Assembly (NCBI GenBank): GCA_016938655.1
Contig: JAFGUG010000011.1
Coordinates: forward strand, 186,001 to 250,000
DNA from: Thiotrichales bacterium
GTDB lineage: Bacteria > Pseudomonadota > Gammaproteobacteria > Thiomicrospirales > Thiomicrospiraceae
Length of the DNA: 64,000 nt
Direction of reading: 5' to 3'
The notes under the pieces were generated by a model. The model was not told the DNA's origin and made no database searches. It saw only the letters and a program-made list of their open reading frames with translations. Positions 21,898 to 37,196 of the stretch are shown here, one piece after another. The position numbers and the translations under genes were made by a program. Positions within the stretch are counted from its first letter, which is position 1. Every line of letters begins with the position of its first letter.

Positions 21898-22917
21898 ATG
21901 GATGATATTCTAAGCCAAGATGAAGTCGATGCCCTCTTAAAAGGGATGGGTGGGGGTGACGTTGAAACCGAAGATGACGATTCGGCAGATTCGGCGACGG
22001 CCAAAGTCTATGACTTTACTAACCAAGAACGTATTGTTCGTGGTCGTCTACCGGCTTTAGATATTATCAACGAACGATTTGCACGCGGTTTTCAGCGACA
22101 CTTCAATGAGATGATTATGTCGAGTGTTGAAGTGACGCCTGGGGAAGTAAAAATCATTAAGATGATTGATTACTTACGCAACTTATTTGTCCCCACCAGT
22201 TTAAATATTTACCGAATCAATCCTTTGAATGGCGTTTCCCTTTTTACCCTTGATTCTAAATTGATTTTTACCGCAGTTGATATCTATTTTGGTGGCACAG
22301 GCCTGCTGCCTTTTAAAATTGAAGGTCGTGAATATACCCCTGTTGAAATGAGTATGGTTCGCAGTATTCTTGATATTTCATCTGAAAACCTCCGCAAAGC
22401 GTGGGGGCCGGTTATGGACATTGAAATCGAATACATGCACTCGGAGATGAACCCAAAGTTTGCTGGGATTGTTGATCCTACAGATATGATTGTGGTCAGC
22501 CCGATACATGTTCGTTTTGAAGGGGTTGAAGGGCGTGTTGATATTGTTATGCCTTATGCCATGCTTGAACCTGTTCGAGATAAGCTTGAAGAGGGCATGC
22601 AAAACCTCCAGGGTGAGAGTGATAATCGTTGGTCTCGCACGCTAAAAGAAGAGTCCAAAAATATTGAAGTTGATCTTTCGGTTAATTTAGCCGAATTAAA
22701 AATGAATATGAACGATTTAATGAAGATGGAAAAAGGTGATATTATCCCGATTGATATGCCAAAACAAGTCACCATCAAAGCCGAGGGCATTGCAATTGTT
22801 CGGGGTAAATTGGGCGAAAGTAACAACAAAAAAGCAGTTAAAATTGAGGATGTATTTCATCATCCTGCTTATCAAGAGCGCAAGATAGAAAACGTTAAGG
22901 AGTGGTACGATGAGTGA
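21898..22917 (+). CDS. fliM: Flagellar motor switch protein FliM
   Basis: 'DDILSQDEVDALLKGM' CheY-P-binding N-terminus. Confidence 0.97.
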   Translation: MDDILSQDEVDALLKGMGGGDVETEDDDSADSATAKVYDFTNQERIVRGRLPALDIINERFARGFQRHFNEMIMSSVEVTPGEVKIIKMIDYLRNLFVPTSLNIYRINPLNGVSLFTLDSKLIFTAVDIYFGGTGLLPFKIEGREYTPVEMSMVRSILDISSENLRKAWGPVMDIEIEYMHSEMNPKFAGIVDPTDMIVVSPIHVRFEGVEGRVDIVMPYAMLEPVRDKLEEGMQNLQGESDNRWSRTLKEESKNIEVDLSVNLAELKMNMNDLMKMEKGDIIPIDMPKQVTIKAEGIAIVRGKLGESNNKKAVKIEDVFHHPAYQERKIENVKEWYDE

Positions 22918-31758: not shown

Positions 31759-32166
31759 ATGCAATTAGATCGAAGTATGCACATTTTAGTGGTTGATGAC
31801 TTTTCTACTATGCGTAGAGTTGTGAATAACCTCTTAACAGACTTAGGCTTTACCCATATTGATGAAGCGGATGACGGTGCAACCGCTTGGCCATTAGTTA
31901 AAACGGGTCGATATGACTTTATTGTCAGCGACTTAAACATGCCTAAGATGTCTGGACTTGAACTATTAACTAACATTCGTGCCGATATAAACTTAAAGCA
32001 TACACCCTTTTTATTGATAACCGCTGAAGCAAAAAAAAGTCAGTTTTTAGAGGCAACCCAATTGGGTGTCGATGGTTACATCGTAAAACCCTTTACGGCC
32101 GAAACCTTACATAGCCAAATTCAAAAAATCTTTGAACAACGTGCTCAAGAAGCAAATGCATACTAA
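31759..32166 (+). CDS. cheY: Chemotaxis response regulator CheY
   Basis: 'ILVVDDFSTMRRVVNNLL...VSDLNMPKMSGLELL...KPFTAETL'. Confidence 0.96.
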   Translation: MQLDRSMHILVVDDFSTMRRVVNNLLTDLGFTHIDEADDGATAWPLVKTGRYDFIVSDLNMPKMSGLELLTNIRADINLKHTPFLLITAEAKKSQFLEATQLGVDGYIVKPFTAETLHSQIQKIFEQRAQEANAY

Positions 32167-32247: not shown

Positions 32248-32922
32248 ATGACGATGGAAACTCAAATTGATAAAGCATTGGTGCAGGCGTTACTGGATGC
32301 CATTGAAAATAATCAAACCGACAAGGCTGCGATATTAGTGGATGAGCTTACTCAGTTAAGAGAGTCCGAGTTAGTTAACCAAATAACCGAACTTAGTCAA
32401 AATTTGCATCATACTTTAAATGATTTAGAGTCGGACACACCCATTCTGATGCATGCCAAACATGACTTGCCGGATGTGACTGAACGACTTCAATATGTCA
32501 TTGATGAAACTCAAAAAGCCAGTGAAACGACATTATCTTCTACGGAATGCGTGTTAAATTTATTGGAGCAAGTTAAATTGCTACTAGCTGAGAATCAAAG
32601 TCCAGAACAAAGTATTAATCTAATTGAGCAGGCCTGCTCAGAAGTCATCAATATTATGATGGCACAATCTTTTCAAGACTTAACAGGACAAGTGTTAAAC
32701 CGTGTTATTTACATTATGACTGATCTGGAAGGGAGTTTGAAAGGGCTTATTGAACGCTCTAAATATGACTTTCAAGCGATTCCTGAAAGACAACAGACGG
32801 ATTCCGAGAGAGAAGCAGCGGAAGCTAAAGGTGTCGGTCCTAATGTGACTCGTAAAGGTAAGGAAGACATTGTGGCGTCTCAAGAAGATATCGATGACCT
32901 ATTGGGTGATCTAGGACTCTGA
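32248..32922 (+). CDS. cheZ: CheY-P phosphatase CheZ
   Basis: 'QSFQDLTGQVLNRVI'; C-terminal CheY-binding 'QEDIDDLLGDLGL'. Confidence 0.95.
   Translation: MTMETQIDKALVQALLDAIENNQTDKAAILVDELTQLRESELVNQITELSQNLHHTLNDLESDTPILMHAKHDLPDVTERLQYVIDETQKASETTLSSTECVLNLLEQVKLLLAENQSPEQSINLIEQACSEVINIMMAQSFQDLTGQVLNRVIYIMTDLEGSLKGLIERSKYDFQAIPERQQTDSEREAAEAKGVGPNVTRKGKEDIVASQEDIDDLLGDLGL
32627..32638. repeat. Exact AGCAGGCCTGCT (16-bp palindrome TGAGCAGGCCTGCTCA)
   Basis: In cheZ. Confidence 0.95.
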
Positions 32923-32957: not shown

Positions 32958-34955
32958 TTGCTTGATCAAGCCATAAACCCGAGCAATGGCTTAGATGAGG
33001 AACAGGTTGTGGACGAAGATATTTTACAGGACTTTCTGGTTGAAGCGACAGAGCTGGTTGATGCACTCAATGGACAGTTAATGGACCTTGAACAGTCACC
33101 AGAAGACCGTGACTTGCTCAATGCTGTCTTTAGAGGGTTTCACACCATTAAAGGGGGCGCTGGCTTTTTAAGCATTACCGCGCTGATTGAGGTATGCCAC
33201 CGAGCAGAAAATGTTTTCGACAAAATTCGTAATGGTGATGTGCCCTATGATGCGCGAGCGGCGGATGTCATTTTAAGAGCGTATGATGTGATCAGCGACA
33301 TTATTGAGGCCTTGAATGGTGGTGCAACCGCTGAAGAGTTGCCAAAGAATGATGCTGGATTGTTAGCCGAGTTAGATGCCTTAACCAAAGGTGGTATGCC
33401 GGAACCCGCTGTGGAAGCGAAGCCTGTTGCAACGGGTGGTCAGTTAAAACTTTCCGATGATGTGGATCCTGACGGCGATATGACCGACGAAGAGTTTGAA
33501 GCGTTGTTAAATCAACGAGATAGCTTACCCGATTCTGTTCAAGAAACCCCGTTACCTGTTGAAGGACTGCAGTTGAGCCCTGATGTAGATCCAGACGGTG
33601 ATATGACCGATGAGGAGTTTGAGGCCTTATTGAACCAAAGAGATATGATTTCAACTGAACCGGAAGAGATGCCGGTGGAAATAGTTGCCGCTCCTCCTGC
33701 TCCGAAACCTGCTCCAGCCCCAAAACCAAGCTCTAAAGCTGTCGCTAAGCCATCTGCGGACGCTGCTCCAAATAAAGCGGTCGGTAAAAGTGCCGCTGAA
33801 TCTTCGGTGCGTGTGGATACCAAGCGACTAGACGAAATAATGAATTTAGTGGGTGAGCTGGTATTGGTAAGAAATCGTCTGTTGACTTTACGATCCGTTC
33901 AGGGGGGCAGTGAAGATTTATCAAATGCCGTTGCCAACCTCGATCACGTTACTACCGATTTACAAAATTCGGTTATGAAAACGCGAATGCAACCGGTTAA
34001 AAAAGTGTTTGGTCGTTTCCCTCGCGTTGTTCGTGATTTGGCTCGAAAATTGGGCAAAGAGATTGATTTAGAGTTACTCGGTGAAGAGACTGATTTAGAT
34101 AAAAACTTGGTTGAAGCACTGGCCGATCCATTAGTGCATTTGGTTCGTAACTCGGTTGACCATGGTATTGAAATGCCTGCAGACCGAATTGCTTCTGGTA
34201 AAAGTAAGAACGGAACAATTATTCTGGCTGCCGAACAAGAGGGTGACCACATTCTGCTATCGATTACCGATGATGGCAAAGGGATGGATCCAGACATGCT
34301 TCGCCGTAAAGCGGTTGAAAAAGGCATGATGGATGAACTCACAGCCCATCAGCTGGATGATAAAGCTGCTTTCCAATTAATTATGGGCGCCGGTTTTTCA
34401 ACGGCTGACCAAATCAGTGATATTTCTGGTCGGGGTGTGGGGATGGACGTGGTCAAAAGTATGATCACCAAACTCAACGGTAGTATTGATATTCACTCAG
34501 TGCCGGGAGAGGGCACTCGAATGAGTATTCGTGTGCCTTTGACTTTAGCAATTTTGCCTACTTTAATGGTCTCATTTGAAGAAGATAATTATGCAATTCC
34601 ATTAACCAGTGTCCAAGAGATTTTCGACTACGATTCAGGCAAGACCAATAAAATTGATGGTCAAATGATGGTGCGTTTGCGAGACAGAAGTGTACCTCTC
34701 TATTTTCTGTCTGAGTGGTTATCACCCAATCATACAAAAGAGAGCTATGAAAACGATAAGGTTATTATTGTTTCCATTGGAAATCAGCGAGCTGGACTTG
34801 TCGTTGAGCAAGTCAACGGGCAGGAAGAGGTGGTCATTAAACCCTTAGGCGTCATGCTTAAAAAAGTGCCCGGTTATGCCGGTGCAACCATTACTGGTAA
34901 TGGAAGTATTGCGCTTATTCTCGATCTACCTGGCGTACTTCAGCGCTTTCAGTAA
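32958..34955 (+). CDS. cheA: Chemotaxis histidine kinase CheA
   Basis: Hpt 'FRGFHTIKGGAGFL', dimerisation, HATPase 'LVHLVRNSVDHGIE', CheW-like C-term; TTG start uncertain. Confidence 0.95.
   Translation: MLDQAINPSNGLDEEQVVDEDILQDFLVEATELVDALNGQLMDLEQSPEDRDLLNAVFRGFHTIKGGAGFLSITALIEVCHRAENVFDKIRNGDVPYDARAADVILRAYDVISDIIEALNGGATAEELPKNDAGLLAELDALTKGGMPEPAVEAKPVATGGQLKLSDDVDPDGDMTDEEFEALLNQRDSLPDSVQETPLPVEGLQLSPDVDPDGDMTDEEFEALLNQRDMISTEPEEMPVEIVAAPPAPKPAPAPKPSSKAVAKPSADAAPNKAVGKSAAESSVRVDTKRLDEIMNLVGELVLVRNRLLTLRSVQGGSEDLSNAVANLDHVTTDLQNSVMKTRMQPVKKVFGRFPRVVRDLARKLGKEIDLELLGEETDLDKNLVEALADPLVHLVRNSVDHGIEMPADRIASGKSKNGTIILAAEQEGDHILLSITDDGKGMDPDMLRRKAVEKGMMDELTAHQLDDKAAFQLIMGAGFSTADQISDISGRGVGMDVVKSMITKLNGSIDIHSVPGEGTRMSIRVPLTLAILPTLMVSFEEDNYAIPLTSVQEIFDYDSGKTNKIDGQMMVRLRDRSVPLYFLSEWLSPNHTKESYENDKVIIVSIGNQRAGLVVEQVNGQEEVVIKPLGVMLKKVPGYAGATITGNGSIALILDLPGVLQRFQ
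33459..33644 (+). repeat. Two copies of a 63-nt/21-aa unit in the CheA linker (period 123 nt)
   Basis: DVDPDGDMTDEEFEALLNQRD at 33459-33521 and 33582-33644. Confidence 0.92.
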
Positions 34956-35892: not shown

Positions 35893-36195
35893 TTAATTAT
35901 TCAAAAGTAGCGCTTCTGATAACCCTGTTTTTTTAGCGGCATCAGTAAGTGTGTCGTTGGTATTTTCCCAGGCGATATTCTTTTGATTGTTTTGAGCAGT
36001 TTGAATGATCGAAAGTAAACTTTGTAAACCACTGGTATCGATGTTTTCAACAGCCTGGGCATCAAAAATAATGTCATCACCCAGGTCAGAAATTGCCGTG
36101 CTAATTTCGTTGTAGCTGGCTTCAATGGTATGAATCGTCAAGCTTTCAGGTAAGGTGATTGTGTCAGCCATGTAGTTCCCCTTAGGAGGTTTCAA
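35893..36195 (-). CDS. STAS-domain protein
   Basis: 'IIFDAQAVENIDTSGLQSLLSIIQTAQNNQKNIAWENTNDTLTDAAKKTGL'. Confidence 0.85.
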   Translation of the reverse strand: MKPPKGNYMADTITLPESLTIHTIEASYNEISTAISDLGDDIIFDAQAVENIDTSGLQSLLSIIQTAQNNQKNIAWENTNDTLTDAAKKTGLSEALLLNN

Positions 36196-36254
36196 ACAGG
36201 TTACGTCACCAAATTACCGTTTGTAAAATGGCGAAGCGAGATATTTGTTTTTAA

Positions 36255-36614
36255 TTACAGAACGCGAGTGATCACAGAAAGTAGTTTTTCTGGGCTAAAT
36301 GGCTTAACAATCCAACCGGTCGCACCCGCTTCTTTACCTTTTGTTTTCATATCACCTGAAGATTCTGTTGTCAGGCACAAAATAGGGGTGAATTTGAAGT
36401 TAGGCATTGCACGTAATGCCGTAATTAGTTCAATTCCGTTCATATTAGGCATGTTGATGTCAGTCACAATTAAATCAAATTGCTGTTGTTTAGCAATTGC
36501 GAGTGCAATAGCCCCATCTTCAGCTTCTGTTACATCGTGTCCTGCGGATTTTAAAGACATGCTTACCATTTGACGCATTGATTTTGAATCGTCGACAGCT
36601 AGAATTTTTGACAT
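36255..36614 (-). CDS. cheY: CheY-like response regulator (second)
   Basis: 'ILAVDDSKSMRQMVSMSL...VTDINMPNMNGIELI...WIVKPFSPEKLL'. Confidence 0.94.
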   Translation of the reverse strand: MSKILAVDDSKSMRQMVSMSLKSAGHDVTEAEDGAIALAIAKQQQFDLIVTDINMPNMNGIELITALRAMPNFKFTPILCLTTESSGDMKTKGKEAGATGWIVKPFSPEKLLSVITRVL

Positions 36615-36671
36615 TTTTTTAATCTCTTACTGGGTTCGTTATTGATTGCGAGTTATTAATTATCGACTATT

Positions 36672-37196
36672 TTATTCTTTATTGAGGCTATTTTGAATAG
36701 AAGCCAGTATTCCATCGTTAATTAATTGATTCACATTAAGCACAACCACCATTTTATCGGCCATGGTTGCAAGTCCATTTATGTATTCAGTGTGGATTGA
36801 ACCACTCATATCTGGCGAGTTTTGTAAGCTGCTGGACGACAAAGAGTGAACGTCTGAGACGCCGTCAACAACTAAACCAATAATTTTGTGATTGCCGTTG
36901 GCATCCTGTGATCGAAGAATAATGACAACCGTTGATTCATTATAGGTAACGCTGTCAAGTCCAAACCGAACCCGTAAGTCGATAATGGGGACGACAGCAC
37001 CACGAAGGTTAATAACGCCCATTACATAGTTGGGTGTATTTGGAATGTTCGTGGTTTTTTCCCATCCTTTAATCTCTTGAACGGTCAGAATATCCACGCC
37101 GTACTCTTCATCGCCTAGAACAAAACTTAAGACTTGGTCATCTTGATCTTGTTTTTGCCCGATTTGATCTTTTACTTTATTAAGATTTGCACCCAT
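36672..37196 (-). CDS. cheW: CheW-like coupling protein (second)
   Basis: 'VLSFVLGDEEYGVDILTVQEIKGWEKTTNIPNTPNYVMGVINLRGAVVPIIDLRVRFGL'. Confidence 0.95.
   Translation of the reverse strand: MGANLNKVKDQIGQKQDQDDQVLSFVLGDEEYGVDILTVQEIKGWEKTTNIPNTPNYVMGVINLRGAVVPIIDLRVRFGLDSVTYNESTVVIILRSQDANGNHKIIGLVVDGVSDVHSLSSSSLQNSPDMSGSIHTEYINGLATMADKMVVVLNVNQLINDGILASIQNSLNKE

Follow-up and report, generated by a model that had tools for sequence, protein, structure and literature searches.

In the window, a 64,000-nucleotide stretch of DNA from a Thiotrichales bacterium, the chemotaxis kinase CheA carries two copies of a short helical unit in the disordered linker between its P1 and P3 domains, and these copies probably act as a set of short linear motifs that dock CheY and stand in for the P2 domain this kinase lacks. 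An initial annotation of the same DNA had raised two readings of the unit, a calcium-responsive kinase and a docking motif for CheY or CheZ. Docking of CheY is the better supported of the two, with the binding itself something that we infer, from conservation of the unit across related CheAs, from its absence where a P2-like domain is found, and from its likeness to the CheY-binding peptides of FliM and CheZ.

A duplicated unit in the P1-P3 linker of CheA

The domain architecture of the window CheA leaves a long interval between P1 and P3. Pfam places P1 (Hpt) at residues 21-113, P3 (H-kinase_dim) at 282-342, P4 (HATPase_c) at 390-529, and P5 (CheW) at 536-663, and it returns no match to a P2 or CheY-binding domain; Pfam, a P2-like HMM, and AlphaFold agree that the P1-P3 interval holds no folded P2 domain. 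The start near TTG 32958 is probably real because the next in-frame ATG (33081), chosen by a Met-only ORF call, would truncate the Hpt domain.

The 21-residue unit occurs twice between the Hpt and H-kinase_dim domains, exactly where the initial annotation had placed it and with the sequence and 41-residue start-to-start spacing that it gave (Table 1). The annotation had also called the copies identical as protein and divergent as DNA, and had concluded that the duplication is either not very recent or under selection. Both statements hold, as there are 11 differences over the 63 nucleotides, in 11 codons, and every one of them is synonymous. Synonymous changes make up 18.5% of the possible single changes in the unit, giving a probability of ~1e-8 that all 11 would be silent; thus, the pattern points to purifying selection on the peptide and away from a recent duplication. 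Across this genome and its congeners, the repeat unit was found only in this CheA.

An AlphaFold model of CheA (47-sequence alignment, mean pLDDT 78.9) predicts that the P1-P3 linker is disordered, at a pLDDT of ~40, and is broken by exactly two isolated helices, both of which fall at the motifs. Block-mean pLDDT is 81-83 for helix 177-189 and 83-85 for helix 218-232. Modelled in this way, they resemble helical linear motifs carried on a disordered tether.

Table 1. Coordinates in the window of the CheA repeat, its core motif, and the genes with which it is compared
Feature	Position	Strand	Description and basis
cheA	32958..34955	+	TTG start, 665 aa; ORF, Pfam, AlphaFold
Repeat copy 1, DVDPDGDMTDEEFEALLNQRD	33459..33521	+	Residues 168-188; sequence and isolated AlphaFold helix 177-189
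Repeat copy 2, peptide identical to copy 1	33582..33644	+	Residues 209-229; sequence and isolated AlphaFold helix 218-232
Core docking-like motif, copy 1, MTDEEFEALLN	33480..33512	+	Class-wide conservation; aligns with FliM LSQDEVDALLK
Core docking-like motif, copy 2, MTDEEFEALLN	33603..33635	+	As for copy 1
CheA motif peptide, GDMTDEEFEALLNQRD			Putative CheY-docking peptide
fliM	21898..22917	+	N-terminal CheY-binding helix MDDILSQDEVDALLKGM; top non-CheA match of the CheA-motif profile
cheZ	32248..32922	+	C-terminal CheY-binding helix VASQEDIDDLLGDLGL; second non-CheA match, 13-column profile
cheY, proposed ligand	31759..32166	+	alpha4-beta5-alpha5 face conserved with E. coli CheY

Conservation of the unit lies in its helix

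We gathered orthologues in two ways, by CheA similarity and as an independent class-wide sample picked on P3-P5 only, the latter being needed because one seed pattern of the similarity collection sits inside the motif. Close relatives, defined by a P3-P5 identity of at least 74%, contributed 117 copies of the unit, and a distant gammaproteobacterial set contributed 220. The part kept in both groups is the core [ST]-[DE]-[DE]-E-F-[DE]-x-L-L, which forms the helix following the loop and in which E is retained in 98-100% of copies, F in 98-99%, and the last L in 97-98%. Motif copies are present in all 120 related CheAs (three in 61, two in 48, four in 7, and one in 4), and this is not chance because shuffled linkers, against which the reality of the repeat was judged, yield the core pattern at 0.015 per linker. 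In the unbiased P3-P5 sample, 40 of 40 CheAs of the window type, representing 40 families, carry one to four copies, a count in which one protein (L149) was read by eye owing to its variant Hpt motif.

Copy number varies from two to four within the close family, where copies resemble one another more within a protein (0.885) than they do across species, whether at the same position (0.805) or at different positions (0.814). The array therefore appears to have been homogenised or re-duplicated within lineages. Among L024 and its congeners, too, the number differs between species, and the genome G003 has three good copies and a degenerate fourth (E 0.73).

Against this background, the calcium reading, in which Ca2+ bound by the two DxDxDG loops would control CheA autophosphorylation, is very unlikely and the least credible of the explanations we weighed. 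The literal EF-loop match that had suggested it, D-x-D-x-D-G-x-hydrophobic-x3-E over 12 residues, is present in both window copies, and there is a weak match to caltubin, an EF-hand protein (E 0.18). However, the ligands are not conserved across relatives: Gly occupies position 1 in 85% of the 117 close-relative copies, and the complete loop pattern is seen in 8 of these copies, 2 of them the window's own, versus 0 of the 220 copies from more distant gammaproteobacteria. The full-loop matches that do occur are scattered over lineages, usually in one copy of the two or three in a protein. Units in Sulfurivirga read DPDEE and lack the loop Gly, and in the distant gammaproteobacterial copies the segment at the loop position reads DDITEEEFEALLDELHGKG. 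Relatives do keep Glu 12 of the 'loop', though as the E that belongs to the helix motif. Nor does the structural prediction favor an EF-hand, since the loop in the AlphaFold model is preceded by coil and followed by a helix, leaving an exit helix and no entering helix; Pfam returns no EF-hand match in CheA at E<=1. Ca2+ sensing is judged very unlikely because of the unconserved loop ligands and the missing entering helix. The outcome matches what the initial annotation had itself named as contrary evidence, namely an xDEFExLL part that is generic and a DxDxDG part that is not conserved. The DPDG segment is not a Ca2+ site but a spacer or cap specific to the family. In three Sulfurivirga-like CheAs (L057, L060, and L061), the unit has diverged to WDPDEEITDEEFEMLLKMREEK, in which the helix core is kept and the loop glycine is gone.

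The same conservation bears on whether the unit is a SHOCT-like or oligomerising helix with no specific partner, or else a neutral low-complexity duplication, both of which we consider highly improbable. Weak similarity to SHOCT appears in 33 of 39 linkers, with a best value of 6e-9, but among the matches listed it covers only the second half of the model, and neutrality is argued against by F and LL, which are strictly kept across the class, and by the all-synonymous divergence of the two window copies. Amphipathic helices capped by S/T-x-x-E resemble one another, SHOCT included, and convergence is possible. Pfam matches to AcrF31 and Styelin were set aside as below the cut-off and touching only the acidic or helical motif, and PDB sequence searches with the linkers returned nothing useful.

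The motif and a P2-like domain do not occur together in the sample

E. coli P2 docks both CheY and CheB, and the array occupies the same position between P1 and P3 as the P2 of E. coli and T. maritima CheA, with docking of CheY and CheB proposed for it as well. The difference is that P2 is a folded domain, whereas the linker of the window CheA is disordered and bears short helices. P2 is missing from more than half of known CheA sequences, whose linker Berry et al. 2023 (PMC10782961) describe as unstructured.

Pfam P2 models, whose insensitivity to P2 was also reported by Berry et al. (PMC10782961), missed the P2-like domain in other CheAs, and we used a leave-one-out HMM in their place. This model recovered a common domain in 33 of 40 linkers of other CheAs, the P2 identity of which was assigned by consensus together with a weak HHalign match of the group to E. 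coli CheA over P2 residues 199-224, and it recovered none in 121 linkers of motif-type CheAs. The motif, present in every window-type CheA of the P3-P5 sample (40/40), is found in its strict form in 0 of 40 other CheAs, among them a second CheA that this genome encodes. Thus, the motif array and the P2-like domain are mutually exclusive in this sample. That second CheA (L165, G000:C63:98190-101841) is ~44% identical to the first in P3-P5, has a P2-like linker and no motif, and provides a natural internal control for the exclusion.

Likeness to the CheY-binding peptides of FliM and CheZ

Conservation and the AlphaFold model together describe the CheA motif as a short amphipathic helix that lies in a flexible segment and has E-hydrophobic-[DE]-x-L-L as its core. 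A profile of the motif was built from distant copies only, leaving out the window's own family, and was scanned over all window ORFs. Among ~31,000 window positions, the FliM N-terminal helix LSQDEVDALLK ranks first with two choices of columns and second with two others, and the CheZ C-terminal helix ASQEDIDDLLGDL ranks second with 13 columns, fourth and fifth with two other choices, and beyond the top five with the shortest; the likeness stands on these ranks, as the absolute profile and BLOSUM scores for FliM and CheZ lie within the maxima of shuffled proteomes. An identity-based FliM profile run over the window places CheZ second and the CheA motif seventh. Across loci, the CheZ C-terminus is the top non-CheA match in 39 of the 103 that have CheZ, at ~25 ORFs per locus.

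The FliM N-terminal helix and the CheA motif share the pattern [LMI]-[ST]-x-x-E-[hydrophobic]-[DE]-A-L-L, although the CheA motif has Phe where FliM has Ile or Val, and it is internal and present in one to four copies, whereas that of FliM is a single copy at the N-terminus. With the CheZ C-terminal helix it shares an acidic-hydrophobic-D-D-L-L-x-x-L pattern, and distant CheA copies end in LLDELHG where E. coli CheZ has LLDSLGF; the CheZ helix differs in being a single copy at the extreme C-terminus that ends in LG-hydrophobic. The EIDALL segment of FliM is an established binding site for CheY-P, in the alpha4/alpha5 groove (PMC9126983). Aligned with E. coli CheY, the window CheY keeps the corresponding face, with T87, A90, K91, K92, Y106, V108, K109, F111, and T112.

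Conserved short helices that recur in a disordered linker typically serve to bind proteins, and a partner other than CheY could be the one bound here. Such a partner might be CheB, which E. coli P2 docks alongside CheY, or CheV, a HubP-like pole protein, or an MCP, or the helices might make an intramolecular contact that regulates P1 or P4. We regard this as unlikely, because the rank likeness is to CheY-binding peptides specifically and the exclusion with P2-like domains points to response-regulator docking.

Operon context and the ParP-binding LID

In the window, the gene order is fliA-cheY-cheZ-cheA-cheW, and in the outgroup loci cheB, motC, motD, and parC follow. The gene order taken to mark F6 systems is fliA-cheY-cheZ-cheA(-cheB-motCD-parC-parP-cheW), and the window CheA is provisionally called F6-like, a label that rests on the operon context fliA-cheY-cheZ-cheA. 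A separate chemotaxis-like cassette at 35893-37196 on the minus strand encodes CheW, a stand-alone CheY-like receiver, and a STAS-domain protein; it adjoins cheR/cheB and lies apart from the cheYZA-cheW operon.

This context brings in the possibility that the motif is, or derives from, the LID of CheA, which binds the AIF domain of ParP, and that it serves polar placement of the array. The LID, compared here by its published description, sits after the P2 position and before P3 and is the ParP-binding region of Vibrio CheA (PMC5706961; PMC7534058), so that it shares with the motif a place in the linker before P3 of an F6 CheA, and most sampled motif-bearing loci also encode ParC downstream. 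The LID has been reported only together with ParC/ParP (PMC7534058), yet the genus of the window has the motif without ParC: only ~35%-identical ParA proteins and no ParC were found in its genome and genus, cheA has no ParC next to it in any of 34 near loci, and one further genome (G034, locus L131) has two motif copies and no ParC. Motif-bearing CheAs without ParC weaken the LID as a full explanation, and we consider this origin improbable.

A proposed role for the array and its significance

In the CheY-docking interpretation, each unit would be an N-capped amphipathic helix, [IM]-[ST]-[DE]-[DE]-E-F-[DE]-A-L-L, in the P1-P3 linker that docks CheY, and possibly also CheB, at the alpha4-beta5-alpha5 face, in the manner of the FliM N-terminus and the CheZ C-terminus. 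Docked CheY would be held near phosphorylated P1 for phosphotransfer, which is what the absent P2 would otherwise do; with two to four copies, the local concentration or occupancy of CheY would rise, and the CheA helices would compete with FliM and CheZ for it. The analysis shows the repeat, its conservation in CheAs of this type, the purifying selection, the predicted helices, the lack of P2, and the ranked likeness to FliM and CheZ, and from these we infer binding of CheY, the face engaged, the affinity, and the kinetic role. Against docking it counts that the motif is short, that its likeness to FliM and CheZ stands on ranks and could reflect convergence of capped amphipathic helices, that it has Phe in place of Ile or Val, and that E. 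coli CheA can still phosphorylate CheY in the absence of P2, more slowly (PMC10782961).

We found neither a description of the motif nor the motif string in the open-access literature (PMC) that the search covered, and the novelty of the CheA motif array is accordingly provisional. The passage of CheY from F6 to F7 systems went along with changes in its residues that face 'P2' (PMC7184735), and the motif could bear on why they changed if F6 CheAs are without P2.

How P2-less kinases recruit CheY quickly and specifically is the question that the motif array addresses. For a large gammaproteobacterial class of CheA, a conserved, repeated FliM-like motif would offer a concrete answer that is cheap to test. 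More broadly, a widespread class of flagellar CheA may have exchanged its folded P2 for tandem helices that mimic the CheY-binding peptides of FliM and CheZ, a proposal for which we find the balance to be even. Competition for CheY among kinase, motor, and phosphatase would then run through one type of peptide, and copy number would tune CheY capture.
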